IMG/VR virus record: IMGVR_UViG_3300046001_006396
Coordinates: 17,928-81,927 of that record
Direction: 5' to 3' (one strand)
Length of the DNA stretch: 64,000 nucleotides
From: a virus
The translations under genes and the position numbers were made by a program. Positions 1 through 55,648 of this stretch are shown one piece after another. Numbering within the stretch: the first letter of the stretch is position 1; each line of letters begins with the position of its first letter. Under the pieces are notes generated by a model that had not been told where the DNA came from, did not search any database, and saw nothing but the letters and a program-made list of their open reading frames with translations.

Positions 1-241
1 CATTTGTTACAAAAATGGAAGATGTAAAATCTATCCATTTATTACCTGATACGTCATATATAGAATAATTTTTTGCCGAATCCCAAACTATCGGTAGTTG
101 GTCGTTCATCGAATCAGGTTCATTTTTTATACAATCCATCAAAACACCTATAGTTTCAGGAGATGGTATATCTGTTAAAATTACCCTATTTTTTGTTTTT
201 ATTTTTGGACAATTTACGGGGTTTATGGAAAACTTAAACAT
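1..241 (-). CDS. Class III PLP aminotransferase, N-terminal part (runs off the window)
   Basis: The frame opens with an ATG at 241-239 and stays open to the window edge, giving the first 80 residues. It overlaps the last codons of the cytidylyltransferase gene upstream, as is usual in this operon. The translated piece contains VWDSAKNYSIYDVSGNKWID followed by FTSSIFVTN. This matches the N-terminal substrate and dimer region of class III (glutamate-1-semialdehyde or ornithine type) aminotransferases, where an aromatic residue, a D-x-x-G-x-x-x-x-D turn and a 'vtnaGH' stretch are typical. The PLP lysine would lie outside the window. Family knowledge places such enzymes in amino-sugar or polyketide-like sugar modification; the neighbours suggest a role in building a surface glycan. 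The assignment rests on one short region, so the family is likely but the substrate is unknown. Confidence 0.6.
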   Translation of the reverse strand, partial: MFKFSINPVNCPKIKTKNRVILTDIPSPETIGVLMDCIKNEPDSMNDQLPIVWDSAKNYSIYDVSGNKWIDFTSSIFVTN

Positions 242-905: not shown

Positions 906-906
906 A

Positions 907-1707: not shown

Positions 1708-1708
1708 T

Positions 1709-2254: not shown

Positions 2255-2256
2255 AA

Positions 2257-6108: not shown

Positions 6109-6109
6109 C

Positions 6110-7264
6110 TTAATTAATCATTTTATTTATTTTTATAACATTTTCAATAATGTAATTTACATCATCATTTGTTAAATTCATATGTAGAGGTAACGATATT
6201 AATTTTTCTGATATAAGATAAGAATAAGGACAAGTCCCTCTATATTTTTCATACATTTTATAATTAGTATTATCTCTATAATGTACACCAGGAAAAATAC
6301 CACAAGAATTTAATAAATCCATAAATTTATTTCTTTGTTCTACAGAAATTTGAAATAGGTGCCTTGACGATTTAACACAATCCTCGTGAGTTTTTATTGT
6401 CATTATACCATTTTCTGAAAGTTTTTTTTCATACATTTCACATATTTCCCTTCTCCTATTATTATCAGATTCCAAATATTTTAAACCAACAATACCCATT
6501 GATGCCATAATAGAATTACCATGATATTTATACCCAACATCAACTAACTCGTATTCCCATTTATACGTACCTTTATCGTTTGTTCTTTGATAGGTGTCTT
6601 TATCTATCCCTAACCAAGATAGTTTTCTTGCGAGACCGTCATAATCATCATTTTCAAAACATATCATACCGGAATCGGCGGTAGGTAAATTTTTAACTGA
6701 CTGAAAACTAAAAACAGACACATCCACATTTTTACCCACGTGAAATATTTTTCCATTTATATCTTTCATAAATGTTCCAGCCATATGGGCAGCATCTAAT
6801 ATTATCTTTAATTTATTTTTTTTACATATATCAATTATTTTATTTAATTGACCCGTATTACCGCCAATACCAACAAATAAAACCGCCTTAGTTTTTTTAG
6901 TTATTAGTCTCTCAACAGATATCGGATCTAAACAAAGGTACTCATCAATATCGGCAAAAACAGGATTTAAATTTTCATATTTAATTGCGTGGTTTGTTGA
7001 TACAAATGTCATTGGTGTTGTTATAATTTCATCCCCATCGTTCCATTTATTGGTGTCTTTTAATATTTTTAAGGCTAAATGTAATCCAGACGTGTTTGAA
7101 TTAATAAAATGTGCGTTCGGTAATCCGGTATACTCCTTCCATTTTTTTTCAATTTCTAAAGTTTTATATCCTAATCCTGTCCACCCAAGATCTAAACATT
7201 CTGAAATGTGTTCTAATATTTCTTCTTTTCTAAATTTAGGCACAAATAAATTTATATTTTTCAT
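6110..7264 (-). CDS. DegT/DnrJ/EryC1/StrS family PLP sugar aminotransferase
   Basis: A 384-aa fold-type I aminotransferase. Landmarks are the N-terminal LGWTGLGYKTLEIEKKW, TSGLHLAL (residues 59-66), TPMTFVST (83-90), DAAH (157-160, PLP-ring stacking and binding) and FSFQSVKNL with the Schiff-base lysine at K191. Length is typical (370-390 aa). Family members turn a keto-deoxysugar nucleotide into the amino-sugar using glutamate. With the next gene (NeuD/PglD-like acetyltransferase) it could form an N-acetylated amino-deoxyhexose step. The upstream gene overlaps its start by 4 nt. Which keto-sugar it uses cannot be deduced. Confidence 0.88.
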   Translation of the reverse strand: MKNINLFVPKFRKEEILEHISECLDLGWTGLGYKTLEIEKKWKEYTGLPNAHFINSNTSGLHLALKILKDTNKWNDGDEIITTPMTFVSTNHAIKYENLNPVFADIDEYLCLDPISVERLITKKTKAVLFVGIGGNTGQLNKIIDICKKNKLKIILDAAHMAGTFMKDINGKIFHVGKNVDVSVFSFQSVKNLPTADSGMICFENDDYDGLARKLSWLGIDKDTYQRTNDKGTYKWEYELVDVGYKYHGNSIMASMGIVGLKYLESDNNRRREICEMYEKKLSENGIMTIKTHEDCVKSSRHLFQISVEQRNKFMDLLNSCGIFPGVHYRDNTNYKMYEKYRGTCPYSYLISEKLISLPLHMNLTNDDVNYIIENVIKINKMIN

Positions 7265-7965
7265 AATTTATACTTTTTATAACAATAAATTTTATCTTTT
7301 TTAATCATTTCTTTACTTACATCAATTAACTGAGACGTTAAATTATGATTTCCAGTCACTATAACAATATTTGAGTCATCCACGATTTCAGGATAACCAT
7401 ATTTTTTAAATAAGTGATACCATAATTCACAGTCTATCATATATTCAACGTTGGTATCAAAAAAATTATCTTTAGGGAACATACCAACGCTTGGACATCC
7501 AATAGTGTTTATTCCATTTAATAAATGTTTACCATCGCCCTCTATTTTTGGAGTCATCCTATTGTAGTAATTTTTACTTTCCGTATCGTAATGAATAAAC
7601 CCGGAAAGAACCCAATTATTATTATTAATCTTATTAACCATTTTAGTTAAAGTATCTCCATTATAAAAGTAATCATCTTGATTCATTATTTTTATATAGT
7701 CCCCTAATGAAAGTCTTATTGCGTTATTGGTATTGTAAGCGGGTAAACCAATATTTTCATAATATCTATAATATTTAATTTTATCTGTATTTAATTTTTT
7801 AATAAGATCCTTAACAAAATTTGTAGGTGAATGGTCAGAAACTATTATTTCATAGTTACCATAATCTTGAAATAAACAGGATAAAATGCATTTTTCAATT
7901 AAGTTAATATTATTACCCATATTATCGTAAGTCGGTATACATATAGATATTTTATAATTTTTCAT
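7261..7965 (-). CDS. Family 2 glycosyltransferase
   Basis: A 234-aa GT-A enzyme. The N-terminus KISICIPTYDNMGNN and LSCLFQDYGNYEIIVSDHS match the GT2 nucleotide-binding start, and IKIMNQDDYFY near residue 92-102 gives the DD metal/nucleotide motif followed by an aromatic residue, as in many GT2 enzymes. The length is that of a bare catalytic domain; no membrane segment is present. It overlaps the neighbouring GT2 by 14 nt at its start and the aminotransferase by 4 nt at its end. Donor and acceptor are unknown. Confidence 0.8.
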   Translation of the reverse strand: MKNYKISICIPTYDNMGNNINLIEKCILSCLFQDYGNYEIIVSDHSPTNFVKDLIKKLNTDKIKYYRYYENIGLPAYNTNNAIRLSLGDYIKIMNQDDYFYNGDTLTKMVNKINNNNWVLSGFIHYDTESKNYYNRMTPKIEGDGKHLLNGINTIGCPSVGMFPKDNFFDTNVEYMIDCELWYHLFKKYGYPEIVDDSNIVIVTGNHNLTSQLIDVSKEMIKKDKIYCYKKYKL

Positions 7966-8671
7966 ATGGCTTATACTGTCTTAACAAGTTATTTACTTCA
8001 TCAACTCTCCTTAAATTTACTTTATGGTCATTAATTGGATTACTTTCATTATATATGTAATTTATTGTATCCATAAATTTATAATGATTTTTTCCGGACA
8101 TTTCAACCATAGGATACATAAACGCCAAATCTCCAGCAACATCCCAATATCTCCCATTTGAATCTTTTAAATCCTCAATTTTTATTTTTCTCCATAAAAA
8201 TGCTCTCCAAGTCCTAATGTGTGATAAAGTAAATGTTTGATTTCTTATGTTTTCAAAACTTGAAGGAGGGTTAGCAAATCCCATTCTCCCGTCGTGATAT
8301 TTAAAAGATCCATTGGCCAACCAAACATCATCATTTAAATATATGTCGTTTATTCTTTCAAAAACTTTTGAATCGGACAACCAGTCATCACCGTCAACCT
8401 CAACACATACGTCATCATCTTTTATATCGTATTCTCCTCTAATTACTTGGTCATAATTTCCTGGCTGATACAGTTTATGTTTATTTTCAATTAAAATAAA
8501 TCTATCATCACCAGATATAAAATTTTTTATTTTATTCACTGTTTGGTCTGTTGATACGTCATCAGTTATAAAACACCTAAAATTTTTATAGGTTTGGGTC
8601 ATTATGGTGGATAAACACTTTTCAATATAATTTTGACAATTATATGTTGTTGTTAAAATAACTAAGCTCAT
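7952..8671 (-). CDS. Family 2 glycosyltransferase
   Basis: This 239-aa protein starts with SLVILTTTYNCQNYIEKCLSTI and TQTYKNFRCFITDD, the standard GT2 opening with the first catalytic aspartates. CVEVDGDDWLSD near residues 88-99 is the DxD-type metal site. YWDVAGDLAFMYPMVE resembles the acceptor/catalytic-base region. It is a soluble single-domain enzyme, distinct in sequence from the adjacent GT2, so a tandem duplication is not evident. It lies between that GT2 and the bifunctional glycosyltransferase, with its start directly abutting the latter's stop. Confidence 0.82.
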   Translation of the reverse strand: MSLVILTTTYNCQNYIEKCLSTIMTQTYKNFRCFITDDVSTDQTVNKIKNFISGDDRFILIENKHKLYQPGNYDQVIRGEYDIKDDDVCVEVDGDDWLSDSKVFERINDIYLNDDVWLANGSFKYHDGRMGFANPPSSFENIRNQTFTLSHIRTWRAFLWRKIKIEDLKDSNGRYWDVAGDLAFMYPMVEMSGKNHYKFMDTINYIYNESNPINDHKVNLRRVDEVNNLLRQYKPYEKL

Positions 8672-10309
8672 TTAATTTAAAATTTTTATATATTCTTCTT
8701 TTATTTTTTTTGCCACCTCATTAGAATTAAATTTACTAATGTCATCCGGAATGTCAAACCTTCTTTTATTTAAAATATTCCCTGAATCATCAATATTGTA
8801 AATCCAACCAGGTTTACCGCACAACCAACCTTCTATTGTTGTTCTTCCTAAAAGTATTCCTGAGGTTTCTGAACAGTTTTTAACGTAAGATTCTACTTTA
8901 TTTGTTGCTGGATAATATTTAACATGAGTATTAATTAATAACTCATCTAAATAGTTTGATTTATTTTCTCCCACTAACCATAACTCTTTTACTATTGATT
9001 TTGAGTACTCAACAAGGTCTTTAATTGTATTTTCTCTTAAGTAATCAATAGTACCAACAAAAAGAACATAACCATCATCTTTTATGTTTTTTGTGTTAAA
9101 TCTATTCGTATCTATTGGGTTATAAATGACTTCAGTATTATTTAACTCAATATTGAAGTTATTAATGATGTGAGATTGAATTTCAGGACGAATACAAATA
9201 TATTTTTTAATTGATTCGTTTATCACTGGATTTTCTAATTCAATAACTTCAGAATGTATTGTTGATATTTTATCAATGTTTGGGTACATTTGACACATTT
9301 GGTTAGTTACTGGAGTGTGCTGTGTATGGATAATGTCGTAATCAACTTCACCCATTTTATACATAACATTTGGTTGTGATGGTTGTACTCCTTGTGGGGT
9401 GTTAAATCCCCATTTACCATCACCCATTTTATATCCAGGAGAATTTGCAAATGATATAGTTTTAATACCTTGTTGTTGTGCTAATTTAGATAATGGTCCA
9501 TTAATATCTGAAAGCACTGTTACGTCACAATTTAATTTTTTAAGTCCTCTTGCCAACTCATAAACATACATTTCTGAACCTGTAAAGGTCTTAAAAAATA
9601 AACAGGAAAGTAGCACTTTAATTGGGGACTCTATTGTTAAATTACGTTTAACTTTAACCGGTAATACCTCTTTATACTTTTCTGCAAATACTTCTCTATT
9701 TTTTTCCCATTGTTCGTTTGTTTCACCAATGGATTTGTGTGTAACTCTAACGTCATATATCACACCAATTTTAACATCTTTAATAAAGTTTCTAAATGAG
9801 AAATCAACATCGTAAAAATGAAATCCACCAATTTCCTCGTTAAAGTTTTCTTTAATATTATTTTTTTTAATTACAATAAAAAGACCATCAACTAAAACAA
9901 CGTCGTCTATCTCATTACCTTTACTTGTTGAATATTTTGATTCCCATTTTTTTCCTTCATGTTCGTGATTAACAATCCCTTTCATTTTTGAAAAATCTTC
10001 CCACCACTTTGCGGATTTTGGCATACTGGTTGTTCCGGCTAATCCTAAAATACCATATTCAGATTTTCTTTTAAAATGATTTAATATTTTTTGACCCCAA
10101 TTTTTTGAGTCAAAATAGATATCATCGTGACATAAAACTACAACATCGTTTGACGATTGGTTTAAAATTTTATTGTATACCTCAGTTAACGAGTATTCCC
10201 CATTATTCTCAAAAGGAATAACCTCAGGATTAGGTATCCCTGAGGTTTTCTTTAACATTTCAACAAAACTGTTATCAATCTTTCTTGTAGAAAATCCAAT
10301 TGTTATCAT
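8672..10309 (-). CDS. Bifunctional glycosyltransferase: GT2-like N-half fused to GT4-like C-half
   Basis: The 545-aa product has two catalytic modules. Residues 1 to about 215 form a GT-A fold: VVVLCHDDIYFDS carries the DD motif near residue 60, and YGILGLAGTT, WWEDF and YDVDFSFRNF resemble Glyco_tranf_2_5-type proteins. From about residue 230 a GT-B, GT4-like domain follows: LLSCLFFKTFTGSEMYVYEL, then VTVLSDINGPL, VIYNPIDTNRF and ILLGRTTIEGWLCGKP, with an E-G-x-x-x-G-x-P nucleotide-sugar motif. The frame is continuous, so this is a real fusion rather than two genes. Two linkages made in sequence by one chain is the simplest reading. It overlaps the dUTPase stop/start by 4 nt. Confidence 0.78.
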   Translation of the reverse strand: MITIGFSTRKIDNSFVEMLKKTSGIPNPEVIPFENNGEYSLTEVYNKILNQSSNDVVVLCHDDIYFDSKNWGQKILNHFKRKSEYGILGLAGTTSMPKSAKWWEDFSKMKGIVNHEHEGKKWESKYSTSKGNEIDDVVLVDGLFIVIKKNNIKENFNEEIGGFHFYDVDFSFRNFIKDVKIGVIYDVRVTHKSIGETNEQWEKNREVFAEKYKEVLPVKVKRNLTIESPIKVLLSCLFFKTFTGSEMYVYELARGLKKLNCDVTVLSDINGPLSKLAQQQGIKTISFANSPGYKMGDGKWGFNTPQGVQPSQPNVMYKMGEVDYDIIHTQHTPVTNQMCQMYPNIDKISTIHSEVIELENPVINESIKKYICIRPEIQSHIINNFNIELNNTEVIYNPIDTNRFNTKNIKDDGYVLFVGTIDYLRENTIKDLVEYSKSIVKELWLVGENKSNYLDELLINTHVKYYPATNKVESYVKNCSETSGILLGRTTIEGWLCGKPGWIYNIDDSGNILNKRRFDIPDDISKFNSNEVAKKIKEEYIKILN

Positions 10310-10908
10310 AGACCAGTGCTTCCAAAACCTTTATCGTTACGGTCCTTTTCTGCAATTTCATTTACCTTAACTAAATTTACCCACTTACCATTAACAACAG
10401 GACAAAGTACTGCTTGTGCAATCTTTTGACCTTTTTCTATTTTAATCCTTTCGTTTGTAGTATTAAAAATAATAACTTTCACTTCCCCTTGATATCCGCT
10501 ATCCACAGTTCCAGGCGAGTTTAAAACCATTAATCCTTGATTTAGTGCTAATCCACTTTTAGACCTAACTTGTATCTCATATCCATCAGGGATATCAAAT
10601 CGTAACCCTGTAGGGATTAATTTTCTACTATTTGCTTGAACCCACAACTCCTCACTTGATCTTAAATCAAATCCAGAATCAGATTCATATGCATATTCAG
10701 GATTTATACTTTCTGACTCGTTAGTAAAATTTAAGGTTACCTTTTTTGCTTTCATAGCGTCCCCAAACATTTGTTCAAGTTGTTCTTCATTTACACCCAT
10801 TGATTCCATCATTGATTTTGGGTCCGACATATCAAAGTCATTCATTTTAGACTGAAGGTCTTTAATCATCTCCAATCCCTTTTTCATCTCTTTTATTTCT
10901 TTAAACAT
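10306..10908 (-). CDS. dut: dUTPase (dUTP pyrophosphatase) with N-terminal extension
   Basis: All five trimeric dUTPase motifs are present: SDSGFDLR (residues 76-83), RSKSGLA (115-121), the GTVDSGYQGEV segment (133-143, with catalytic D136 and Y139), GQKIAQAVLCP (160-170) and the C-terminal RNDKGFGSTG (190-199) that closes over the substrate. The enzyme removes dUTP and supplies dUMP for thymidylate synthesis. The core begins near residue 55. The extra N-terminus is a charged, Met-rich helix (KEIKEMKKGLEMIKDLQSKM) that other dUTPases lack and could be a coiled-coil contact. The neighbour at one side is an exonuclease and at the other the glycosyltransferase run, with 4-nt and 1-nt overlaps. 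Confidence 0.92.
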   Translation of the reverse strand: MFKEIKEMKKGLEMIKDLQSKMNDFDMSDPKSMMESMGVNEEQLEQMFGDAMKAKKVTLNFTNESESINPEYAYESDSGFDLRSSEELWVQANSRKLIPTGLRFDIPDGYEIQVRSKSGLALNQGLMVLNSPGTVDSGYQGEVKVIIFNTTNERIKIEKGQKIAQAVLCPVVNGKWVNLVKVNEIAEKDRNDKGFGSTGL

Positions 10909-11639
10909 TATTTCAATTCTTTTAATTTTTTTATAAATTCAACCAATACGTCAACATCTTTTTCACAATACTCAGCAATTTGAGGTAATTTTTGTTCTAC
11001 CCAATATGTATGATGTACCTTATCGCCTGTCACTTCACCATCTTTTGGTGTTGGTATTCCCATTGTTGAACAAACAAGGTCCAACGAACCAATAGATGTG
11101 TAAGCACCATATTGCCAAACTTCTTTTGTGTCAATCGCCTTTACCTCCCAAGGTTTTGTATCGTAAGATGGTAATAACTTAGACGGTAAAATTCCGTTTA
11201 TTATCATTCTTTTTGACATCATAGGAATATCAAAGTTTTTAAGATTATGACCACAAAGATAAAAATCCAACTTATGACATCTATCAAGAAGGTTTCTTAC
11301 TTGTAATAACAACTCTTTTTCATCATCACCTGAGAACGTTTGTTTTTTAACTTCACCAGTTTCCATAACAAACGCCATAGAGACACAAATAATTTTTGCA
11401 AACTCAGGAACAAGTGCGGTTCTTTTTTTAAAGACCTCACCCATTCTTATTTCATAATCTTTTTTAGTTTTAGGTGACTCAATTTGGTCTTCAGGAAATC
11501 TTTTTTTAAACCAATCGTAATATTTCTTAAATTGTTCTGCAATTTCAGGACTAAATCTTTCACAAGATTCTAAGTCAGGACATCCACCAACAGTTTCAAT
11601 GTCCAAGAATAAAATTTTTGTAATAGGTATGTTTATCAT
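10908..11639 (-). CDS. DEDDy 3'-5' exonuclease (PolB proofreading-like)
   Basis: A 243-aa nuclease of the stand-alone family-B polymerase exonuclease type. The catalytic residues appear as LFLDIET (D13, E15), CGHNLKNFDIP (D137) and IAEYCEKDVD (Y224, D228), the DEDDy pattern. A GSLDLVCSTMGIP segment between motifs II and III is common in this family. The DNA polymerase in this window has its own exonuclease domain, so this is an accessory 3'-5' exonuclease, perhaps for repair, recombination or host DNA breakdown. It overlaps the dUTPase start by 1 nt and a GT4 gene by 4 nt. Confidence 0.85.
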   Translation of the reverse strand: MINIPITKILFLDIETVGGCPDLESCERFSPEIAEQFKKYYDWFKKRFPEDQIESPKTKKDYEIRMGEVFKKRTALVPEFAKIICVSMAFVMETGEVKKQTFSGDDEKELLLQVRNLLDRCHKLDFYLCGHNLKNFDIPMMSKRMIINGILPSKLLPSYDTKPWEVKAIDTKEVWQYGAYTSIGSLDLVCSTMGIPTPKDGEVTGDKVHHTYWVEQKLPQIAEYCEKDVDVLVEFIKKLKELK

Positions 11640-12850
11640 TTTACTAAGTTTTTATAAATTTCTGCTCTATCTTTTGTCACTTTATTTAAGTCGTATGTGT
11701 CTTTAACCGTCTCATAAAGTCTCTGACCTAAGTCATATGCAAAATTAGGGTTGTCAATTAATTTTTTCATATATTTAGACCAATCACTATGATTTCTTGC
11801 TTCGTCAACTAAAAGAGCATTTCCATCAACAAAGTTACCATCTTTTAATGAGTGTTTCAAGTCAATTGTGTAGGGACCAATGTTTGATGCGATAATTGCC
11901 TTTTTATAAAATCCAGCCTCAATTACTTTTAATTGTGATTTAACTCTATTAAATATGTGATTTTTAATTGGGGCTAATGATACATCAAACCATCTATAGT
12001 TAGACGCATAAGTTGTGACAGGTTTAGTCCAAACACGATTATAAAAAGGTAGTATATCTGAAACGTATTCCTCCTCTTTAAATTTCAATAAAAACTCTTT
12101 GTGTTTTGGGTCAACCATTGAATATTTGTCTGTAAATATTTCTTCATACCTTGCCCATACGGTTTCTTCAGGTCTAATGTCCCTTTGTTTTTGTTCTCCC
12201 GTTTGTTGGTTGATTTCAGTAACGGTACCTCTTGTATCAAATCCACAAAGATACATACTAAATTTATCTTTTAGTGGTTTTAATTTATTAATTGTACCAT
12301 CCAACAATTTTAAATCATGCAAGTGGGATGACCCACCTAACCACCCAAACCTTAATTTGTCTGAAGGTAATGTTTCTGATTTAAATTGTGGCTCATTTGG
12401 GTTAATTGCGTTTGGTAGAATAAAAACGTTCTTATTAAACTTTGATATTTCTGACGCAAAAACACTTGTTGTTGTTGTAACATATCCCGCAACTTTTAAA
12501 TTTTCAATAATTTTTTTATGTAAATTATTTTGAATAACTAATTGATGTACAGGGTGTTCTTTTGTTGGTAGCCAATAATCATCTAAATCCATAATTGTAA
12601 TTAACCCTAAACCGTTTAGTCTTTGAATTAAATTCACAGAATTATCATATTCGTGACCAATAGTTCTATGAAAGTGTACGATGTCATATTGTTTCCAATA
12701 ATTTAAATCATTTACTCTTGGTTCGTAATCAATATCTACGTGGAACTCATCAGGATGATTATTTTGTAATGCCACGTGAGGGTCAATACTTCTAAATTTA
12801 CCAACACCTGTCTTATCTGAAGGTAATACTAATACTCTTATTTTACTCAT
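11636..12850 (-). CDS. GT4-like glycosyltransferase
   Basis: A 404-aa GT-B glycosyltransferase. The N-terminal domain has LVLPSDKTGVGKFRSIDP and IVHFHRTIG, the C-terminal domain begins around NVFILPNAINP and includes LRFGWLGGSSHLHDL, YLCGFDTRG and VIEAGFYKKAIIASNIGPY, the last being the E-x-x-x-x-x-x-x-I/V-x-S nucleotide-sugar site region of GT4. An inserted segment (about residues 195-270, rich in charged residues, WARYEEIF) makes it longer than the minimal fold. This is the first gene of the long minus-strand transcript that runs to position 1, preceded by the terminator of the neighbouring operon, so a promoter should lie within 12851-12895. Confidence 0.8.
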   Translation of the reverse strand: MSKIRVLVLPSDKTGVGKFRSIDPHVALQNNHPDEFHVDIDYEPRVNDLNYWKQYDIVHFHRTIGHEYDNSVNLIQRLNGLGLITIMDLDDYWLPTKEHPVHQLVIQNNLHKKIIENLKVAGYVTTTTSVFASEISKFNKNVFILPNAINPNEPQFKSETLPSDKLRFGWLGGSSHLHDLKLLDGTINKLKPLKDKFSMYLCGFDTRGTVTEINQQTGEQKQRDIRPEETVWARYEEIFTDKYSMVDPKHKEFLLKFKEEEYVSDILPFYNRVWTKPVTTYASNYRWFDVSLAPIKNHIFNRVKSQLKVIEAGFYKKAIIASNIGPYTIDLKHSLKDGNFVDGNALLVDEARNHSDWSKYMKKLIDNPNFAYDLGQRLYETVKDTYDLNKVTKDRAEIYKNLVK

Positions 12851-17795: not shown

Positions 17796-20696
17796 ATGGT
17801 TCCACAAGAAGAAATTGAACGTTTTCTATTAGGAGAAGACGATGAAAAATATATCGTATCGTTAGAATACGATTACAAATCCTCAAAAATTTATAAAGTT
17901 ATTCAAGACCCCGTTAAAGGTAAACTTTTACGTATGGACACATTTATTCCATTTGCTTGGGTTGGTGACCTTAAAAGTAAAAACTTTTATAAGGGTAATA
18001 AAGACCTTCAAAAAAAGGCAATGTCTGAAAACGGCATCATCATAGAAAAATTAGAGGACAAGGGAGATGAAAGATTAAAGAGTGGTTTGACTTTTATGGT
18101 TAAATCTACCAAGTCGTATTCAAACCTTGTAAACTTTTTTAAAATGGGTGGACTTGACCCTTGGGGTAGGGATAATTCAGATGTGATTACAATTTTATCT
18201 CCTGTTGAACAATACCTAATCCAAAAAAGTAAAAGGTTATTTAAAGGGTTTGACGAATACGATGAGATTCACAGATTTGTATTTGATATTGAGACCACGG
18301 GTTTAGACCCAAAAACAAGTAAAATGTTTTTGATTGGGATGAAAGACAACCGTGGTTTTATAAAATTATTATCTGCACAAAACGAAGATGAGGAAAGACA
18401 AATGATTGTTGAGTTTTTTAGAACAATTGATGAATTAAAGCCGTCACTCATTGGTGGGTACAACTCGGCATTCTTTGACTTCCCATACATTTTAAAAAGA
18501 GCGGAAATATTAAAACTAAACATTAAAAAGATATCAAAAACTTTACATCCTGATTATTCTTTAAAACAAAAGGATGGAATTTTAAAGTTGGCAAATGAGA
18601 TGGAACCTTATGTTCAAACTCAAATGTGGGGATATAATATTGTTGATATTGCACACGCAGTTCGTAGAGCTCAAGCAATCAACTCAGATATTAAAAGTTG
18701 GTCCTTGAAGTATATAACCAAATTTATTGAAGCAGAAAAAGAAAATCGTGTCTATGTTGACGGTGATAAGATTGGTAAAATCTATTTTGATAATGAGGAT
18801 TATTGGATGAATAAAGAAAATGGTAATTATAAAAAGGTTGGTATTAATGAAAAAATAGATAGTATTTGTTCAAGAAGAGATGATGTCTATTTTAAAACTA
18901 ACGGTTCAAAAATTATTGAGGATTATCTTGACGATGACTTATATGAAACAATGGTTGTTGACGAACAGTTCAATCAAGCAAACTTTTTACTTTCTAAACT
19001 TGTACCAACAACATATGAAAGGCTATCAACAATGGGTACCGCCACATTATGGAAAATGATTATGTGTGCGTGGTCATATAAACATAATTTAGCAATTCCA
19101 AAGAAAAAAGAAAAACGAAAATTTACAGGAGGTCTTTCTCGTTTGGTTCAGGTTGGTTACTCAAGAAACGTATTGAAACTTGACTACTCGTCACTATATC
19201 CATCTATTCAGTTGGTTCACGATGTGTTTCCTTCTTGTGACGTTACGGGAGCGATGAAGAGTATGTTAAAGTATTTCCGTGATACTCGTATTAAATACAA
19301 GAACTTGGCTGGTGAATATAAATCAATAGACTTAAAGGCGTCAATTTCATATGATAGAAAACAGTTACCAATTAAAATCTTTATTAACGCATTCTTTGGT
19401 TCGTTATCCGCCCCTCACGTATTTCCTTGGGGTGATATTGATATGGGTGAACAGATTACTTGTACGGGTAGACAGTATCTTCGTCAGATGATTATGTACT
19501 TTATGAAACGAGGTTACGTTCCTTTGGTAATGGATACGGATGGTGTTAACTTTGAAACTCCTAAAGATAGGGAGACCTACACATATGTCGGTAAAGGATT
19601 AAACGGTTTGGTTAAACAGGGTAAAGAATATGTAGGTGCAGAAGCAGATGTTGCAGAATACAATGACTTATTTATGAGAAATGAAATGGGTCTTGATATT
19701 GATGGTGTATGGCCAGCAACTATTAACGTTGCCCGTAAAAACTACGCATTACTTACAGATAAAGGTAAAGTTAAACTTACAGGTAACTCAATTAAATCTA
19801 AAAAACTTCAAACATATGTTGCAGAGTTTTTGGATAAAGGATTAAGAATGTTACTTGATGGTAAAGGTGGAGAGTTTTTAGATTTCTATTATGAATATGT
19901 AAGTAAAATTTATAATAGAGAAATACCACTTGCAAAGATTGCAAATAAGGCCCGTGTTAAACAATCAATTGATGACTATAAAGTTCATGTCACAAAAACA
20001 ACCAAATCAGGAAGTTTAATGTCACGTCAAGCGCATATGGAACTTTTAATTAATAACGGTAAAAACCCAGGATTGGGTGATACTATCTTCTATGTTAATA
20101 ATGGTGAAAAGAAATCTCACGGGGACGTTCAAAAGAAAACAACCAAGATGACTAAAAAACAAATTGAGGATTACACAAATATTCACGGAGCGGTTCCACC
20201 TGAAATGTTATCAAAAAGTGAGGTTATTTTGAATTGTTATATGATTGATGAAAAAGAGATTGAAAACAATCCTGACTTGTTGGGTGAATATAATGTACCA
20301 AGATATTTGGCATCATTTAACAAAAGAATTGAACCCCTACTTGTTGTGTATAGTCCTGACATTAGACAAGACATTTTAATTGAGGACCCCAAAGACCAAC
20401 CAATATTTACTAAATCCCAAACAGAATTAGGAAGAGGGTTTCCGATGAAAGAAAAGGACCAAGATAACTTAGATGAGGTTTTGACTTTATCTGATATGGA
20501 AATTAACTTTTGGCAATCTGTTGGTATTGACCCGTATTATATGTACATAGACGATACCATTAATTTAGTGGATATAGATAGAGTTAATCACAATAATAAA
20601 TTAATGATTGAAACTAAAAGAGTTGAGAAGGTTGACGAGGACGATATCTTTGAATATGATGTAGATGGGGATTTAATGACCCACATTTTTGATTAA
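17796..20696 (+). CDS. Family B DNA polymerase (T4 gp43-like)
   Basis: The 966-aa replicative polymerase has a 3'-5' exonuclease domain with FVFDIETTG (D164, E166) and GGYNSAFFDFPYI (motif Exo II). Polymerase motif A is LKLDYSSLYPSI (D463), motif B is KIFINAFFGSLSA, and motif C is MDTDGVNFE (D580, D582). The serine of the usual DTDS is glycine here, and both metal-binding aspartates are kept. Length compares with 898 aa in T4. The gene is monocistronic: its own promoter lies upstream and a terminator hairpin lies just past its stop, inside the convergent gene. It copies the phage genome with the gp32, UvsX and gp41-like proteins encoded at 48889-53733. Confidence 0.95.
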   Translation: MVPQEEIERFLLGEDDEKYIVSLEYDYKSSKIYKVIQDPVKGKLLRMDTFIPFAWVGDLKSKNFYKGNKDLQKKAMSENGIIIEKLEDKGDERLKSGLTFMVKSTKSYSNLVNFFKMGGLDPWGRDNSDVITILSPVEQYLIQKSKRLFKGFDEYDEIHRFVFDIETTGLDPKTSKMFLIGMKDNRGFIKLLSAQNEDEERQMIVEFFRTIDELKPSLIGGYNSAFFDFPYILKRAEILKLNIKKISKTLHPDYSLKQKDGILKLANEMEPYVQTQMWGYNIVDIAHAVRRAQAINSDIKSWSLKYITKFIEAEKENRVYVDGDKIGKIYFDNEDYWMNKENGNYKKVGINEKIDSICSRRDDVYFKTNGSKIIEDYLDDDLYETMVVDEQFNQANFLLSKLVPTTYERLSTMGTATLWKMIMCAWSYKHNLAIPKKKEKRKFTGGLSRLVQVGYSRNVLKLDYSSLYPSIQLVHDVFPSCDVTGAMKSMLKYFRDTRIKYKNLAGEYKSIDLKASISYDRKQLPIKIFINAFFGSLSAPHVFPWGDIDMGEQITCTGRQYLRQMIMYFMKRGYVPLVMDTDGVNFETPKDRETYTYVGKGLNGLVKQGKEYVGAEADVAEYNDLFMRNEMGLDIDGVWPATINVARKNYALLTDKGKVKLTGNSIKSKKLQTYVAEFLDKGLRMLLDGKGGEFLDFYYEYVSKIYNREIPLAKIANKARVKQSIDDYKVHVTKTTKSGSLMSRQAHMELLINNGKNPGLGDTIFYVNNGEKKSHGDVQKKTTKMTKKQIEDYTNIHGAVPPEMLSKSEVILNCYMIDEKEIENNPDLLGEYNVPRYLASFNKRIEPLLVVYSPDIRQDILIEDPKDQPIFTKSQTELGRGFPMKEKDQDNLDEVLTLSDMEINFWQSVGIDPYYMYIDDTINLVDIDRVNHNNKLMIETKRVEKVDEDDIFEYDVDGDLMTHIFD

Positions 20697-21025
20697 GAAT
20701 TTTTTAGACCGTCGGAGGATAGAATATACCAATATTCTCCGACTTTTTTAAACTCCACACAAGAACCTTTATCTAACTCAACCTCATTAAATTCCTCGTC
20801 TATTTTTTTATCACTACTAACAATAACATGAGTTAATGATTTAACGACAACGTGGTCTGTTGTATTTGAATCTAAAAATAAATTACAAGAATCAACACCT
20901 TTTACTATTATTGTATATTCACCATTTGTTGAGTAATCTCCGTTTGATAAAATAATAGAATCTGATGTTTTAATCTCATAACCATTAATGATTCTTAAAG
21001 ATGGTTGAGATCTAAAAATAGCCAT
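20693..21025 (-). CDS. Small virion-type hypothetical protein
   Basis: A 110-aa protein, first residues AIFRSQPSLRIINGYEIKTSD, then an all-beta pattern (SNGDYSTNGEYTIIVKGVDS, DHVVVKSLTHVIVSSDKK) and a terminal GEYWYILSSDG. The FKKVGEYWYILSSDG ending resembles the closing strand of small phage tail/fibre domains. It is transcribed after the neck-like gene (gap 6 nt) and converges on the polymerase gene with a 4-nt overlap of the two stop regions. A plus-strand terminator is encoded inside its last codons. Confidence 0.55.
   Translation of the reverse strand: MAIFRSQPSLRIINGYEIKTSDSIILSNGDYSTNGEYTIIVKGVDSCNLFLDSNTTDHVVVKSLTHVIVSSDKKIDEEFNEVELDKGSCVEFKKVGEYWYILSSDGLKNS
20711..20749 (+). terminator. 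Terminator of the DNA polymerase gene, inside the convergent gene
   Basis: GTCGGAG (20711-20717) pairs with CTCCGAC (20737-20743), with further AT pairing in between, followed by TTTTTT (20744-20749). It begins 15 nt past the polymerase stop and lies wholly in the 3' coding end of the minus-strand 110-aa gene. The minus direction has no clear U tract. Confidence 0.75.
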
Positions 21026-21031
21026 AATAAA

Positions 21032-22150
21032 TTATATGATATTATACGGGCTAGTAAATGCTCTATATTTTAATGCCTTATTCATATTTTCGGCCTGTAA
21101 ACCCTTTATTTCCCATTGTTTTTCAGGTCTTAATCTCTCAAGTCTTAGTTTTAATTCTTCCCACAATAAGTTTTTTTCATCTTTTGCTTCGGTCTGTAAA
21201 GACGTGTATTCTAAAGTTAATTCAGAATCCGGTGTTTTTAAATTACCACTATACTTACCTCTAACTCTTGCCAAAGTTTCTTTACAATATGCGGTAAACC
21301 ATCGTCTAACCCAAGTTTGTGCGGGCGAATTTAAATCAGTCCAAGACATTTCATCAATAGGAACATCTGAAGGTAATCTTACAACGTCAGGATTTTTTGC
21401 TAAACAATCTTCACGATCAAAAGTATCATAATACCAATACCAAACTCTGTAGTCGTGTCTTTTCATATTACCAAAATCAAATTTTCCACCAGGTACATTC
21501 ATTAGATGAATTGCCTTTTTACCTTCAGGAAGTGCAGTCACTCTGTAAGTTAATTCTCCTGTGATAATTCTTCTTTTCATACTAATGTCAGACATCCTTA
21601 AAAGAATATCAAATGCCGGCGTAACAAAATAGTTACCTGTTGTACCCATTTGTGAAAACCCTGCACCACCACCAAGTCCGATACCACCAAATCCACCAAA
21701 TCCACCCATAAATGGATCAAAATATGCCGCGTCTAATTCTGACCTTGAGAACCATAATAGTTCATTTAATTCTCTACCTGCGGGTATTTCATATATTTGT
21801 TGGTGGGGTATCAAATCTATATAATCTTTTTTCAAAACGTAGTCCCCTCCGGCTTGTAGTCCCACAATTTTAGAATACGAGTAAGTGTATTGAGTTTCCC
21901 AATCTAAACTTCTTGTTGTAAATGCCCTTGTAACTGACTGCTCATCCAAGTTTAATCCGTATAATGATGACCATTGGCTTTCAATTAACCAATCATTTAC
22001 GTGTTGTGCATAATCTTGTATTGATAACTCAAGTAATGAGTCCATCATCTCATCTTCTAACTCAACGGAACGTAAGGGTGCTCCCAAAAGATTTTTAATT
22101 CTTTTATACAACTTACTTCTTTCAGGTTCTGCTATGATATTTGTTGACAT
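21032..22150 (-). CDS. Putative neck / head-completion structural protein
   Basis: The 372-aa protein begins ERSKLYKRIKNLLGAPLRSV, then VELEDEMMDSLLELSIQDYA, an amphipathic helical opening like head-tail adaptor proteins, in which a length of helix binds the portal and then a small beta domain follows. A glycine-rich loop (MGGFGGFGGIGLGGGAGF, near residues 148-165) interrupts the middle. RVWYWYYDTFDRE and AYCKETLARVRGKYSGNLK follow, with a helical charged C-terminus. The adjacency to neck and tail genes supports a connector role, but no T4 gene number is claimed. A TATTTAT motif lies 13 nt before its start on the minus strand. Confidence 0.5.
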   Translation of the reverse strand: MSTNIIAEPERSKLYKRIKNLLGAPLRSVELEDEMMDSLLELSIQDYAQHVNDWLIESQWSSLYGLNLDEQSVTRAFTTRSLDWETQYTYSYSKIVGLQAGGDYVLKKDYIDLIPHQQIYEIPAGRELNELLWFSRSELDAAYFDPFMGGFGGFGGIGLGGGAGFSQMGTTGNYFVTPAFDILLRMSDISMKRRIITGELTYRVTALPEGKKAIHLMNVPGGKFDFGNMKRHDYRVWYWYYDTFDREDCLAKNPDVVRLPSDVPIDEMSWTDLNSPAQTWVRRWFTAYCKETLARVRGKYSGNLKTPDSELTLEYTSLQTEAKDEKNLLWEELKLRLERLRPEKQWEIKGLQAENMNKALKYRAFTSPYNII

Positions 22151-22159
22151 AAGACTTTT

Positions 22160-23278
22160 TTATATAAATATCTTTTTGGTTAAAATACTTTCATTCAATT
22201 TCTTTTTTGTTTGTGATAAGTATTGGTCTGAAACAAAATTCCAATTAACTACTTTCCAAAAATTATGAATATATTTGTCCCTTTCGTTTTTATATTTTAG
22301 ATAATATGCATGTTCCCACAAATCTAAACCAAGTAAAGGGTACCCCCCATTTTTTTCAGTATCCATTAACGGATTGTCTTGGTTAGGTGTTGTGACAATT
22401 TTTAAGTTATTAGTTTTATTAATAATTAACCATACCCACCCAGAACCAAATCTTGTCTTTGCAATTTCCTCAAACTTTTCTTTAAACTCTTCTAAAGACC
22501 CAAAAGTTTTTTCAATTTTAAATAATAGTGGGTTTTTTAATTCCGTTCTTTTAGGTGTTAACATTTTCCAAAATAATGCATGATTAAATGCGCCACCACC
22601 ATTATTTTTAACTTTTTTATTAAACTTTGATATTTTTTTTACGATATCAATTAAATCAAGGTCCTTTCCCGACATTTTTTCTAATTCTAAATTTAATTTC
22701 TCAACATACCCTTTATAATGTTTATTATAGTGAGTTTTCATAGTTTCATCATCAATAAACGACGATAAAGAATCAAACTCATAAGGTAGTTTTTCAATGG
22801 TAATTTTTTTTATTTCCGTAATGATGTTGGTTTTAGAAACCGAATCTTCGTTGATTAGTTTCTCTAATTCTTTAATTCTTTCATTAAACAATGAATAAAT
22901 GTTTTTTTCATCCTTTTTGTGTCTACGTTCAAATCTTTTTACCAATTCACCCGACCTTTCATTAGCCTTATTTTCGTTTTTACCCCCGATATCCGGACCC
23001 TTATCCATGTTTTCAATGGTTCTTTGGTACTCGTGAGCCCATTCGTGTGCTATAGTTCTAAGAATGTCTCTATTCATTCTATCTTTAACTAATATTTTTA
23101 TAATGTGTTTATTAGTTCTTGAACCCGTAGACATTTTACCATAACGAGATTTTAAAAATTCAATTGTAATATCTTTTTTTAATGGTAATTTTCTTTTTAA
23201 GAAACTGATAAAATTGTCTAATAATTGTTCGTCATCTGAATCAACGTTAAACCCAACAAATTTTTTATTTACTCTCAT
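22160..23278 (-). CDS. Fusion of zinc-metallopeptidase-like domain and Mn/Fe superoxide dismutase
   Basis: The 372-aa protein joins two domains. Residues 1 to about 125 contain IAHEWAHEYQ with an HExxH site (H78, E79, H82) and a downstream NKANERSGELVKRF (E107) that resembles the third-ligand helix of ImmA/SprT-like peptidases. Residues about 155-360 are a complete Mn/Fe superoxide dismutase: LPYEFDSLSS, MKTHYNKHYKGYVEKLN (ligand H183, gateway Y191), GGGAFNHALFW (H233), FGSGWVWLI, NQDNPLM (Q300) and DLWEHAYYL (D319, H323). All four metal ligands are kept. The active-site Gln placed in the second domain is typical of Mn-type enzymes. The C-terminus ends LNESILTKKIFI. A TATTTAT motif is 5 nt upstream of the start. 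Confidence 0.9.
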   Translation of the reverse strand: MRVNKKFVGFNVDSDDEQLLDNFISFLKRKLPLKKDITIEFLKSRYGKMSTGSRTNKHIIKILVKDRMNRDILRTIAHEWAHEYQRTIENMDKGPDIGGKNENKANERSGELVKRFERRHKKDEKNIYSLFNERIKELEKLINEDSVSKTNIITEIKKITIEKLPYEFDSLSSFIDDETMKTHYNKHYKGYVEKLNLELEKMSGKDLDLIDIVKKISKFNKKVKNNGGGAFNHALFWKMLTPKRTELKNPLLFKIEKTFGSLEEFKEKFEEIAKTRFGSGWVWLIINKTNNLKIVTTPNQDNPLMDTEKNGGYPLLGLDLWEHAYYLKYKNERDKYIHNFWKVVNWNFVSDQYLSQTKKKLNESILTKKIFI

Positions 23279-23290: not shown

Positions 23291-25054
23291 TCACCTACCA
23301 CTATAAATCATATTTAACATTTCTTCTATTGATGACGCGTCATCCATCATATCATCCCCCATAACAGTAGATATTATTTTTTTCTTTCTATTTAAGATGT
23401 CATAAATCACACCCTCAATTGAGTTTTCAAATAGGGGGTAATAAACTGATGTTGATTTTTTTTGTCCAATTCTATGTGAACGGTCTTCTGCTTGTGCGTG
23501 TTCTGCAGGAACAAACGATAGATCATTCATAATAACCGCTTCAGCTGAAGTTAAAGTGATACCAACACCCGCAGCTTTTAAATTTCCAACAAAAACTCTT
23601 ATTTTATCGTTTTCTTGAAAATCGTCTACCGCCTTTTGGCGATGCGGTTTTGAACAAGACCCGTCTAAATAAACTGCCTGTTTTCCAAAATGTTCATAAA
23701 TAGTTCGTAACGTATCGGTAAAGTTTGTAAATATAATAACTTTTTTTCCTTGATCAATAATATTTTCTGCTAACTCAATAGTGTTTTTAACTTTTTCTTC
23801 TGCAATCACTTTTCTAACTTTCATTAATTTTCCAAATTGAATTGTGAGTGACGAAGACTCTTCTGAATTGTTGTCGTACCAATTAAAATATTCACCCATT
23901 AATTCTTCGTAATCTTTAGATTTTAATCTTAAATAAACAGGTGTAATAATTTTATCAGGTAAATCTAAAACATCTTCTTTTAATCTTCTAAGAATATGTG
24001 ACTGAGTTCGTTCCCTTAATTCGTCTAAGTTTGATGCCCCCGTAACATTCCATACTTTTCTTTTCCCAACACTAAATTGAAATCCGTTACAATATCTTCT
24101 TGCATAAGCCATCCAATTGGCGGCAACAGGACTTTCAACTAAACTTAAAAGATTAAAGTAGTTCATTGGTCTTGATGTCATTGGAGTTCCTGTTAATAAC
24201 CAAACCCTATCAAGTTTATCACAAATGTCGTTTACAATTTTTGTTCTTTGTGCTTGTGGGTTTGATATCATATGTGCCTCATCCATAATCAACAAATCAA
24301 ATTTTGTTTTTAAAATTATTGATTCTTCCTTCTTTTTTGGGTCATGGAAGTTTTTTAAAATATCATAATTAACAATTACAAAATCGTGTTGGTCTGAAAA
24401 CTTTTTGCCTTCTGAAATATAAACTGACCTATCAGAATAATTTTCAATCTCTCTTTGCCAATTTATCTTTAAAGATGCGGGACAAACAATTAATATTTTT
24501 TTTGCTCCCGATTCAAGTGCCGATATAATTGTTGAGGTTGTTTTTCCAAGACCCATGTCGTCCGCCAAAATAAACTTTTTGTTACCTACTAATTTATGAA
24601 TGGCTTCTTTTTGGTGTTCCATCGGAAGTCGGTGGTTGTACTTCTTATAATCAATAACAAAATCTTTTACTTCGTTATCTTTTATAAGTGCTGATTTTGG
24701 CATCCAAAAATCGTGTAATGTTTCACCACTAAATACTTTCCCCCAAATATGATACGACTTATCTTTTTCAACCAAAAGTTTTTCAACATAAATTTCTGTT
24801 GGTTCTTTTGTGTACATTTTATCCTCCATCATTTTTTTACCAAAATATGAATCAAGTTTGACCCATTTTTTTGCGACCTTTGGGGTTCTTCCGTGAAAGT
24901 TAATTACATATTCCGATTGAGATCTTGTAGGGGTAAAGGACTTACTATTTTGTTTTTTATGTTTTAAATTTAGGATATAGTTATTTGATCCATCATAATC
25001 ATCAATTAGTTGAAGGGCTCTTGTTTCAGGAGTTTTTGAAATAAATTCTTCCAT
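23291..25054 (-). CDS. SNF2-family DNA-dependent ATPase / helicase
   Basis: A 587-aa superfamily 2 ATPase. ADDMGLGKTTS (residues 164-174) is Walker A, FDLLIMDEAHMISNP is the DEAH box, LLTGTPMTSRPMNYFNL is motif III and VFVGNLKAAGVGITLTSA with QAEDRSHRIGQKKS are motifs V and VI. The Q-R-x-x-R-x-G-Q ending is typical of SNF2 proteins such as SMARCAL1/HARP, which anneal or remodel replication forks. In T4-like phages UvsW has a comparable fork-reversal role but is a different subfamily; the two should not be equated. The first 130 residues are an extra beta-rich domain. It is the first gene of a four-gene minus operon that ends near 20693. Confidence 0.9.
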   Translation of the reverse strand: MEEFISKTPETRALQLIDDYDGSNNYILNLKHKKQNSKSFTPTRSQSEYVINFHGRTPKVAKKWVKLDSYFGKKMMEDKMYTKEPTEIYVEKLLVEKDKSYHIWGKVFSGETLHDFWMPKSALIKDNEVKDFVIDYKKYNHRLPMEHQKEAIHKLVGNKKFILADDMGLGKTTSTIISALESGAKKILIVCPASLKINWQREIENYSDRSVYISEGKKFSDQHDFVIVNYDILKNFHDPKKKEESIILKTKFDLLIMDEAHMISNPQAQRTKIVNDICDKLDRVWLLTGTPMTSRPMNYFNLLSLVESPVAANWMAYARRYCNGFQFSVGKRKVWNVTGASNLDELRERTQSHILRRLKEDVLDLPDKIITPVYLRLKSKDYEELMGEYFNWYDNNSEESSSLTIQFGKLMKVRKVIAEEKVKNTIELAENIIDQGKKVIIFTNFTDTLRTIYEHFGKQAVYLDGSCSKPHRQKAVDDFQENDKIRVFVGNLKAAGVGITLTSAEAVIMNDLSFVPAEHAQAEDRSHRIGQKKSTSVYYPLFENSIEGVIYDILNRKKKIISTVMGDDMMDDASSIEEMLNMIYSGR

Positions 25055-27147: not shown

Positions 27148-30100
27148 ATGGCATCTACTAACAAAGTATTCGTTTCACCTGGAGTCTACACTTCAGAAAG
27201 AGATTTGACTTTTGTTGCTCAAAGTGTAGGGGTAACAACATTAGGTTTGGTTGGGGAGACACTACAAGGTCCTGCGTTTGAACCAATCTTTATAACAAGT
27301 TTTGATGAGTATCAAGTATACTTCGGGGGGACAAGTCCTGAAAAATTTGTAAATACACAAATACCAAAATATGAAACATCGTATATTGCTAAAGCATATC
27401 TACAACAATCAAATCAGTTGTTTGTTACTAGAATATTAGGGTTATCGGGATACGATGCGGGACCATCTTGGTCAATTACAACTATAGGTAATGTTAATCC
27501 TAGTACTGTTTCGGCAACAGGAAATACAGGACCTGTTTATGTGTTCTTTACAGGTACAACAGGAGCAAGTTCAAACGTAACAATAACAAACATACCATCT
27601 CAATTAACGACATTTAATAATACATATTTACAATTTAATGGTAATACTTCAAGTATTTCTACAAATTTTAAAACGTTTATTGCGAATGAAATAAATAAAT
27701 ATACAACATCAGGACTTCAATCAGGTACAGGAACAACTGCTCAGTTTTGGGGAACTTTAAGTGCGGGTACACTTTCTTTAGTGACGGGGACATCTATTAA
27801 CCCTGGAGGTATTACGGCAACTTCTGAAACATTTGGTGTAAGTAACGTTAATCTTTCTTTAGCGAATTTATCGGCATCAACTAACGACCCTTGGTACTAC
27901 GCATTATTTAATTATAGTAAACCTGCAAGTGTTGGTTCATATTACGGTTATGGATTTGGTACTCGTTTAAATACTTTAACGAGTATTGGTGGTGGAGTAT
28001 ATTCTGGATCATGTGCGGTTTATTTAACAAACTATTCGGGTTCACCATACAGTGATTTTGATGATTTGGTAATAGCAACTCTTAGATCAAGAGGAGTCAC
28101 TAACTATTCCTCAACACAACACGGACCATCTTATCAAGTTACAGGAACATCCGACGTTACTTTAATTACAACAGGAACTTACTCAGGAATTTCTTCTGAC
28201 CCGTATAATACTTTTGCTGTTAGTGGCATCACTAAAGATGGTGACACATTTACATTTGAAACTTCAATGACAAGTTCAGACACTCAATATCTTTCTAAAG
28301 TTTTAGGTAGATCTAATTTCTCTAAAGATAGAACTGAAGTTCCTATTTTTGTCGAGGAGATTTATCCAAGTCTTTTACTAAGCGGATATAGAGCAGGAAA
28401 AGTTAGAGGATTATATTCTAATTTAGTTGCCCTTGATAGTGCGGAATCTTTAGACACTAATTCATTAGGTTTTTATTTGGAGCAATATCAAACACCTGAA
28501 ACTCCTTACGTCGTTTCAGAATTAAGAGGTAACAAAGTCTATAAATTATTTAAATTTAAACTTATTTCTGACGGTAATGCGGCAAATAGATTAGTTAAAA
28601 TTTCAATTGGTAATATCTCATTTAATACTAGAACGTTTGATGTATTCATTAGAGATTTCTATGATAATGACCAAAATGTTAGAGTTATTGAAAGTTTTAC
28701 TAACTGTTCATTAGACCCTAATTTGAATAATTACGTTGCAAATAAAATAGGTACAGCAAACGGAGAATACAATCTTAACTCAAAATATGTTATGGTTGAA
28801 ATGAACGATGAAGCACCTGAAGATGCACTTCCTTGTGGTTTTGATGGGTACGTTATACGTTCTTATGATACGGCAACCCCACCTTACTTGGTTTATAAAA
28901 CTAAATATTTAACACCTGGAGAAACAATTTACAATCCTCCTTTTGGGTCAACAAGTGGGGCGGATAATCCTGTAATTTCTAACGGTGAAAATCCTCGTAA
29001 GGCTTACTTAGGTATTTCAAATATCACTGGAGTTGACTACGATTTCTTTGACTATAAAGGTAAAGTGTTACCAGCTAACCTTGAAACGGATACAACAGGT
29101 CTTGATTGGAATTATATTACTAAAGGGTTCCACATGGATAGTGGGGCAACTGTTGTAACAATTATGGGTTCAGGTGCGACCGCAGGTCAACCGGCATTTG
29201 AAGTTGGTGTTGGGTCATTTAATTCTGAACCAACAAGTACTGATAGTCCTTATTACAAATTAAACACTCGTAAATTTACTTTATATGCTTATGGAGGTTT
29301 TGATGGTTGGGATATCTATAGAGAATATAGAACTAATGGTGACACCTACGCACTTGGTCAAACAGGGTTTAAATTTGGAGCGGCACCATCATCTACATAC
29401 CCAACAGCAACAGGATGGGGAGCATTTAAACAAATCTCAGGACCTAACCAAGAGGTTTGGGCAAATACTGACTATTACGCATACAAGTGGGGTCAAGGAA
29501 CTTTTGCAAATCCTGAAGCAACAAACATTAATATTTTTGTAACACCAGGAATTGATTACGTAAATAACTCAAATCTTGTTGAAGATGCGATTGATATGGT
29601 TGAATCTGATAGAGCCGACTCAATCTATATTTGTACAACACCTGACTTTAATCTATTCTTACCAACATTTAGTGATGTCACAGAAGGGTTAATCTACCCA
29701 CAAGAGGCAGTTGACAACCTAGAAGAAACGGGTATTGATTCAAATTATACCGCATCTTATTACCCTTGGGTATTAACAAGAGATAGTGTAAACAATACAC
29801 AGATTTATCTTCCACCAACTGCTGAGGTTACTAAAAACTTAGCGTTAACCGATAACATCGCATTCCCTTGGTTTGCATCTGCAGGATACACAAGAGGTTT
29901 GGTTAATTCAGTTAAAGCTCGTAAGAAGTTAACACAAGAAGATAGAGACACACTTTACAAAGGTAGAATTAACCCAATTGCAACGTTCTCTGATGTAGGT
30001 ACTGTAATTTGGGGTAACAAAACAATGCAAATTAGAGAATCTGCACTTGACAGAATTAACGTAAGAAGACTGTTGTTACAGGCTCGTAAATTAATTTCAG

Positions 30101-30360
30101 CGGTAGCGATTAGATTATTGTTTGAACAAAACGACGACAAAGTAAGACAAGATTTCTTAGATTCCGTTAATCCAATTTTGGATTCAATTAGAAGAGATAG
30201 AGGTTTGATTGACTTCCGAGTTACAGTTTCAAACACACCTGAAGATTTAGACTCAAACACATTGACAGGTAAAATCTTCTTGAAACCGACAAGAGCGTTG
30301 GAGTACATTGACATAGAGTTTGTTATTACACCAACAGGAGCATCTTTTGATGACGTATAA
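27148..30360 (+). CDS. Tail sheath protein (T4 gp18-like)
   Basis: The 1070-aa major tail sheath subunit. The N-terminus VFVSPGVYTSERDLTF matches the SPGVYxxExD signature of sheath proteins; the C-terminal 230 residues (YPWVLTRDSVNNTQIYLPPT, KARKKLTQEDRDTLYKGRIN, WGNKTMQI, LDRINVRRLLLQARK, then LEYIDIEFVITPTG) form the conserved core and trypsin-resistant domain. The protein is much longer than T4 gp18 (659 aa); the extra about 400 residues are largely a Gly/Ser/Thr-rich beta region between residues about 110 and 430, which would decorate the outer surface. The contracted sheath drives the tube into the cell. It is the first gene of its transcription unit, ending at a hairpin. Confidence 0.93.
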   Translation: MASTNKVFVSPGVYTSERDLTFVAQSVGVTTLGLVGETLQGPAFEPIFITSFDEYQVYFGGTSPEKFVNTQIPKYETSYIAKAYLQQSNQLFVTRILGLSGYDAGPSWSITTIGNVNPSTVSATGNTGPVYVFFTGTTGASSNVTITNIPSQLTTFNNTYLQFNGNTSSISTNFKTFIANEINKYTTSGLQSGTGTTAQFWGTLSAGTLSLVTGTSINPGGITATSETFGVSNVNLSLANLSASTNDPWYYALFNYSKPASVGSYYGYGFGTRLNTLTSIGGGVYSGSCAVYLTNYSGSPYSDFDDLVIATLRSRGVTNYSSTQHGPSYQVTGTSDVTLITTGTYSGISSDPYNTFAVSGITKDGDTFTFETSMTSSDTQYLSKVLGRSNFSKDRTEVPIFVEEIYPSLLLSGYRAGKVRGLYSNLVALDSAESLDTNSLGFYLEQYQTPETPYVVSELRGNKVYKLFKFKLISDGNAANRLVKISIGNISFNTRTFDVFIRDFYDNDQNVRVIESFTNCSLDPNLNNYVANKIGTANGEYNLNSKYVMVEMNDEAPEDALPCGFDGYVIRSYDTATPPYLVYKTKYLTPGETIYNPPFGSTSGADNPVISNGENPRKAYLGISNITGVDYDFFDYKGKVLPANLETDTTGLDWNYITKGFHMDSGATVVTIMGSGATAGQPAFEVGVGSFNSEPTSTDSPYYKLNTRKFTLYAYGGFDGWDIYREYRTNGDTYALGQTGFKFGAAPSSTYPTATGWGAFKQISGPNQEVWANTDYYAYKWGQGTFANPEATNINIFVTPGIDYVNNSNLVEDAIDMVESDRADSIYICTTPDFNLFLPTFSDVTEGLIYPQEAVDNLEETGIDSNYTASYYPWVLTRDSVNNTQIYLPPTAEVTKNLALTDNIAFPWFASAGYTRGLVNSVKARKKLTQEDRDTLYKGRINPIATFSDVGTVIWGNKTMQIRESALDRINVRRLLLQARKLISAVAIRLLFEQNDDKVRQDFLDSVNPILDSIRRDRGLIDFRVTVSNTPEDLDSNTLTGKIFLKPTRALEYIDIEFVITPTGASFDDV

Positions 30361-55619: not shown

Positions 55620-55648
55620 ATCATGAAAGTACAATGGGGAAATAATAC

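Follow-up and report, generated by a model that had tools for sequence, protein, structure and literature searches.

A phage gene was found to encode, in one polypeptide, a zincin-type domain followed by a complete Mn-type superoxide dismutase (SOD), and the observations presented here support this fusion as real and previously undescribed in the open-access literature searched. The gene lies at positions 22160–23278 of the window, the 64,000-nucleotide stretch of viral DNA that was analysed. A first, sequence-only reading had proposed a single 372-aa frame with an HEWAH site and a full SOD, which was borne out; across this interval only the minus strand is open, which was left unstated in that reading, and it encodes 372 aa from the ATG. 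All parts are therefore on the minus strand: an N-terminal zincin domain, M78/IrrE-like gluzincin in type (residues 1–128; 22895–23278), an interdomain linker (residues 131–158; 22805–22888), the Mn-type SOD (residues 160–354; 22217–22801) and a C-terminal tail, KKLNESI (residues 359–365; 22184–22204).

Conservation and genomic context of the fusion

The same fusion was looked for in other viral sequences and was found repeatedly. A scan of IMG/VR returned at least 578 related stretches, and in the best 80 of these, which were examined for domain content, both domains were present in a single ORF spanning nearly the whole query. The two domains occupied one uninterrupted ORF in 81/81 loci of the first scan, all with the same gene neighbourhood. 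The first and further scans together yielded at least 122 distinct fusion ORFs, and 123 fusions were aligned (among the sequences used, G000 is an 82-kb fragment). H78, E79, W80, H82, E102, H183, H187, Y191, H233, Q300, D319, W321, E322, H323 and Y326 were identical in all 123. The dN/dS ratio was 0.127 for the N domain, 0.113 for the SOD and 0.315 for the linker; purifying selection on both domains thus excludes chance. The strong conservation of the two halves shows that the fusion is genuine and is being kept; it is a conserved family trait and not a one-off.

The weak point foreseen in the sequence-only reading was a frameshift or an assembly join. A chimeric contig or a frameshift joining two genes was rejected, and has practically no probability left, since independent contigs carry the identical fusion with identical neighbours and the linker is of similar length throughout the relatives. 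An assembly join, or the decay of either domain, is excluded.

No account of the fusion, or of the N-terminal leader described below, was found in the open-access literature, in agreement with the initial statement that no described protein is known to combine the two activities. In one paper on Microcystis viruses, Fe/Mn SOD appears in the list of AMGs (PMC12542629). The usual entry for a phage SOD is a lone auxiliary gene; in this family the enzyme comes permanently joined to a predicted protease, and because every active-site residue is kept in at least 122 distinct sequences, the peptidase–SOD pairing itself must be useful.

The gene directly upstream, 12 nt away, encodes an SNF2-type helicase (23291–25054, minus strand; PHROG helicase, 1.6e-110) and is likely to be on the same transcript as the fusion. 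Directly downstream are a neck/head-tail adaptor gene (21032–22150, minus strand; phrog_211, 5.9e-10) and g110, a small conserved gene of the same cluster encoding 110 aa (20693–21025, minus strand). The order helicase > fusion > neck > g110 < polB was conserved in the first 81 loci wherever the contig was long enough, with a median of 12 nt between the helicase stop and the fusion start (80 loci). The gene had been placed among tail and neck genes; this is only half right, because a neck gene does adjoin it but on the other side, 12 nt upstream, is a helicase gene, the three making up a helicase–fusion–neck operon.

The same reading had pointed to a late-type TATTTAT motif. Genes of these phages do carry the motif upstream more often than shuffling predicts, but at the fusion gene it abuts the ATG and is at most a putative promoter. 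Sense-strand TATTTAT[AT] was found within 60 nt upstream of 12/48 ORFs of the window, 75/310 ORFs of a 304-kb relative (G001) and 26/140 ORFs of a further contig (G003), compared with shuffled expectations of about 1.6, 13 and 5, respectively. Its spacing peaked at 3–5 and 12–15 nt before the ATG, and it is possibly a late promoter with very short leaders. Counted across the whole window, TATAAATA was not above chance.

The fusion carriers form a large group of uncultured T4-like phages, probably infecting Bacteroidota. Pointers to this host are given by a T9SS-type C-terminus on one protein of the 304-kb relative (G001:140247–141392, identified by eye) and by the nearest bacterial SODs, which are mostly from Bacteroidota (about 50% identity) in a list biased by scan patterns that came from phage sequences.

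Superoxide dismutase and zincin-type domains

The SOD assignment is supported by Pfam matches to Sod_Fe_N (residues 160–240; 2e-20, 73.5 bits for a cut-off of 27) and Sod_Fe_C (residues 250–351; 1.3e-40, 138 bits for a cut-off of 20.9), and in the PDB the highest-ranking matches are to Mn/Fe SODs (7e-59, over residues 163–354). The SOD residues originally listed (H183, H233, D319, H323, Y191 and Q300) are all among the invariant ones, as are the H187/Y191 gateway pair and E322/H323/Y326. Q300, at the Mn-type Gln position, is accompanied in 123/123 fusions by G229, a Gly at the Fe-type Gln position; by sequence the SOD is of the Mn type, and cambialistic use of Fe is compatible with it. The domain thus has what characterizes the Fe/Mn SOD family (PF00081/PF02777), namely a full domain, four metal ligands, the gateway Tyr, the Mn-type Gln and the E-H-x-x-Y dimer motif, and differs by the N-terminal zincin domain, by the C-terminal modules that many relatives add and by its separate phage clade.

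In the tree, the phage SODs form one clade (support 100/100) separate from the bacterial clades. The sole member of the tree set that lacks the N domain, L440, branches within the clade of fusions and for this reason has probably lost it. Other phage Fe/Mn SODs are those of the jumbo phages PA5oct (Pseudomonas) and 2.275.O (Vibrio) and of uncultured Caudovirales (A0A6J5L953, A0A6J5L7W0). A0A6J5L953 (501 aa) is 59% identical to the fusion over the aligned part; the PA5oct-type SOD matches at only 27%, in the SOD part only.

AlphaFold, proposed at the outset as a check on the first domain, predicted a confident zincin fold for residues 1–128 (52 aligned sequences; pLDDT 94, pTM 0.89). In this model a sheet is packed on the HExxH helix (69–87), and the following ligand helix (100–119) carries E102. 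The HEWAH motif (residues 78–82; 23033–23047) has H78, E79 and H82 where they were first placed; these three are unvarying in stand-alone relatives of the domain too. E107 had been put forward as a possible ligand and was rejected: position 107 is Ala in 95/123 and Ser in 26/123 aligned fusions, and the invariant acidic residue is E102 (22973–22975), found in 123/123 fusions and 52/52 domain sequences. E102 is the predicted third metal ligand.

Profile comparison points to an M78/IrrE-like gluzincin, with membership unproven. Alignment with genuine M78 sequences by hhalign gave a probability of 94% over 39 columns only, with the HExxH...ExEAN region aligned; H78, E79, H82 and E102 reproduce the M78-type HExxH with a third ligand E in an ExEAN-type motif (consensus NEDEAN). 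The Pfam M78 family, PF06114, was matched at E ≤ 0.1 by 12 of the 52 members (best 6.5e-5) and was not matched by the query N domain. Foldseek against the PDB gave only weak zincin ties, to YbeY and thermolysin (E 0.03), with none below E 0.001; YbeY, an RNase of similar fold, ranked first. Like Peptidase M78 (IrrE/PprI, ImmA), the N domain has HExxH followed by E-x-E-A-N with the third ligand; unlike it, the N domain has no helix-turn-helix or GAF part, the match is limited to the active-site region, and the members seen fall below a convincing Pfam level. We use the term M78/IrrE-like, and not proven member, because the family cut-offs were missed and the PDB fold ties were weak, with the M78 profile match at 94%. 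Peptidase activity is not assured, as the link to M78 covers about 40 active-site columns, no Foldseek match reached E <0.001 and YbeY came first.

Two other families were considered for the N domain. SprT/Spartan was rejected (8.5% probability, 12 columns), the third ligand being Glu and not His. DUF6055 was rejected as well: it gave weak matches with 30/52 members (best 4.8e-4), and the query is below its cut-off.

A search against a viral library detected stand-alone and fused relatives of the N domain in uncultured Caudovirales phages, some of them named IrrE N-terminal-like, and longer ones named amidoligase or AAA. The domain occurs alone in QPX48222.1, a hypothetical protein of 132 aa from the freshwater cyanophage Synechococcus phage S-SRM01. 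This homologue has the same invariant residues and scores 13 bits with PF06114, under the cut-off of 22; it differs from the fusion by lacking an SOD and by its replication gene context, among RecA, primase-helicase and pyrophosphatase genes. The A1 scan contributed twelve single-domain ORFs, some of which stop at the edge of their contig. In a 527-aa protein (L120:3905–5485) the N domain is followed by a 370-aa part without detected SOD, which starts with ESIIKKIIREE and has no Pfam match above cut-off. A profile search of 296 genomes from the phylum of a Bacteroidota locus found no N domain, while the same profile matched 5/5 virus records used as positive controls; judged from these genomes of one phylum, the N domain therefore looks phage-borne.

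LxE sites and possible functions of the fusion

In many distant relatives the protein runs on for 330–380 aa past the SOD. These tails are mostly of three kinds that are unrelated to one another, besides single cases; at least three unrelated modules of this size follow the SOD in L062–L080 and L359–L452. The two kinds tested gave no Pfam match above cut-off. In one module, an E...D...SCK spacing is reminiscent of PD-(D/E)xK nucleases (by eye only).

The SOD/module junction reads KKLNES....[LI]xE in most tailed relatives. A loose LxE was present at this junction in 30/33 non-redundant tails (shuffled mean 9, maximum 17; 4/31 in the interior), and a strict LxE followed by A, G or S in 12/33, compared with 2.7 after shuffling. 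Strict sites were not enriched in the peptidase–SOD linker (20/109 versus 17.6 shuffled). The query C-terminus, KKKLNESILTKKIFI, resembles the start of the relatives' junction and the extra module, and the query clade has no extra tail. Loss of the tail in this clade is likely, because it lies inside the others in a midpoint-rooted tree.

Long relatives encode a T4-type S77 prohead protease and gp23, and in their gp23 LINE followed by A is found where, by analogy with T4, the propeptide end is expected. In the 304-kb relative, 79/297 proteins have an N-terminal LxE leader (mid-protein 35, shuffled maximum 51). A near-identical leader, MKKVIRLTESDLTRIVKRVINE, is shared by 12 of its proteins and by two of a second contig; in the latter, the total of LxE leaders stayed within the shuffled range (22/139; mean 13.9, maximum 29). 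Leaders of the MKKVIRLTESDLTRIVKRVINE or ITEEEKxRILGMHK...LxEQ type are common to dozens of otherwise different proteins of G001 (L254–L269); examples are at G001:13969, 14306, 48611, 69387 and 110153, and at G003:12701 and 14362. By analogy, the shared leader looks like a capsid targeting sequence (CTS) cut by the S77 protease; if so, the G001 phage packages tens of proteins. The fusion has no N-terminal CTS-like leader ending in LxE, and the leader HMM gave no significant match with it.

We consider it probable that the product is a two-enzyme protein, in which a working Mn-type SOD and a working M78/IrrE-type metallopeptidase are held by a flexible linker. The SOD part, probably derived from a Bacteroidota-like host, would remove superoxide in the infected cell, and the N-terminal metallopeptidase would cleave an intracellular protein. 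The linker (142–156 predicted disordered, pLDDT <50) would join them so that they are made and delivered together, probably from the helicase–neck transcript. Fe/Mn SODs are at least dimers; therefore each particle of an oligomeric fusion would bear two or more peptidase heads. From the invariant sites we infer that both enzymes are active, and we likewise infer an oligomer, a substrate, and the place and time of action. IrrE/PprI-type peptidases control bacterial stress responses, so that a coupling of redox defence with cleavage of a regulator is testable.

Other functions can be envisaged. The zincin fold could be a non-catalytic domain that binds protein or DNA, for example the adjoining replication complex, and places an ordinary auxiliary SOD there. 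The 12-nt distance to the helicase gene, the proximity of polB and the replication gene context of the S-SRM01 stand-alone domain fit such a role, which is nevertheless rather unlikely, as neither the catalytic E79 nor any of the three metal ligands varies, which would be unexpected for a domain that only binds. The sequence-only reading had also considered that a wall- or protein-cutting domain places the SOD at a target, or that the virion or the lysing cell is protected from superoxide; in one such role, a wall- or surface-cutting enzyme would bring the SOD to the cell envelope or shield the particle from outside. Apart from the HExxH motif and the neck gene next door, this role is unsupported and very improbable: the nearest profile is that of the intracellular M78/IrrE-ImmA peptidases, Pfam and PHROGs searches found no wall-binding domain or endopeptidase family, and the fusion gene is outside any lysis or tail-fibre block.

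Virion packaging, also suggested at the outset, is a real possibility because of the LxE at the SOD/module boundary, the S77 protease and the many CTS-like leaders. The fusion would be loaded into the prohead, LxE-cut by the S77 protease and injected with the DNA, SOD and peptidase acting at once on entry. The phages that carry it share with T4 (IPI-III, Alt) an S77 protease, LxE sites and CTS-like leaders, and the query retains KKLNESI; T4 internal proteins are diverse anti-host proteins with only the CTS in common (PMC3012670). Packaging is putative here, and we hold it to be doubtful and no better, because the fusion, in contrast to the T4 internal proteins, has no N-terminal CTS and its linker is not enriched in strict sites; in addition, the query clade has no tail and the cleavage specificity is presumed. 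If the LxE boundaries are truly cleaved, enzymes would be delivered from the capsid as a polyprotein. In a further proposal, less likely than either packaging or a targeting domain, peptidase, SOD and variable module are the parts of a modular polyprotein; this would be capsid-loaded, LxE-cut by the prohead protease and injected, disarming host superoxide chemistry and cleaving a host regulator as soon as infection begins.

Other features of the window

A very large block of sugar-nucleotide, glycosyltransferase, aminotransferase and NeuB-like genes was recognized by eye at 234–12850 of the window, and a similar one at 4167–17814 of L084; it possibly serves a phage- or host-surface glycan. Also by eye, a dUTPase-like sequence follows an extra helical N-terminal part at 10306–10908, and a ribonucleotide-reductase-like gene is followed by an HNH-type homing-endonuclease-like ORF at 53760–56543. 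Finally, the tail sheath protein (27148–30360), at 1070 aa, far exceeds the usual length; its match to the sheath profile lies close to the C-terminus, and the protein therefore has large N-terminal or inserted domains.
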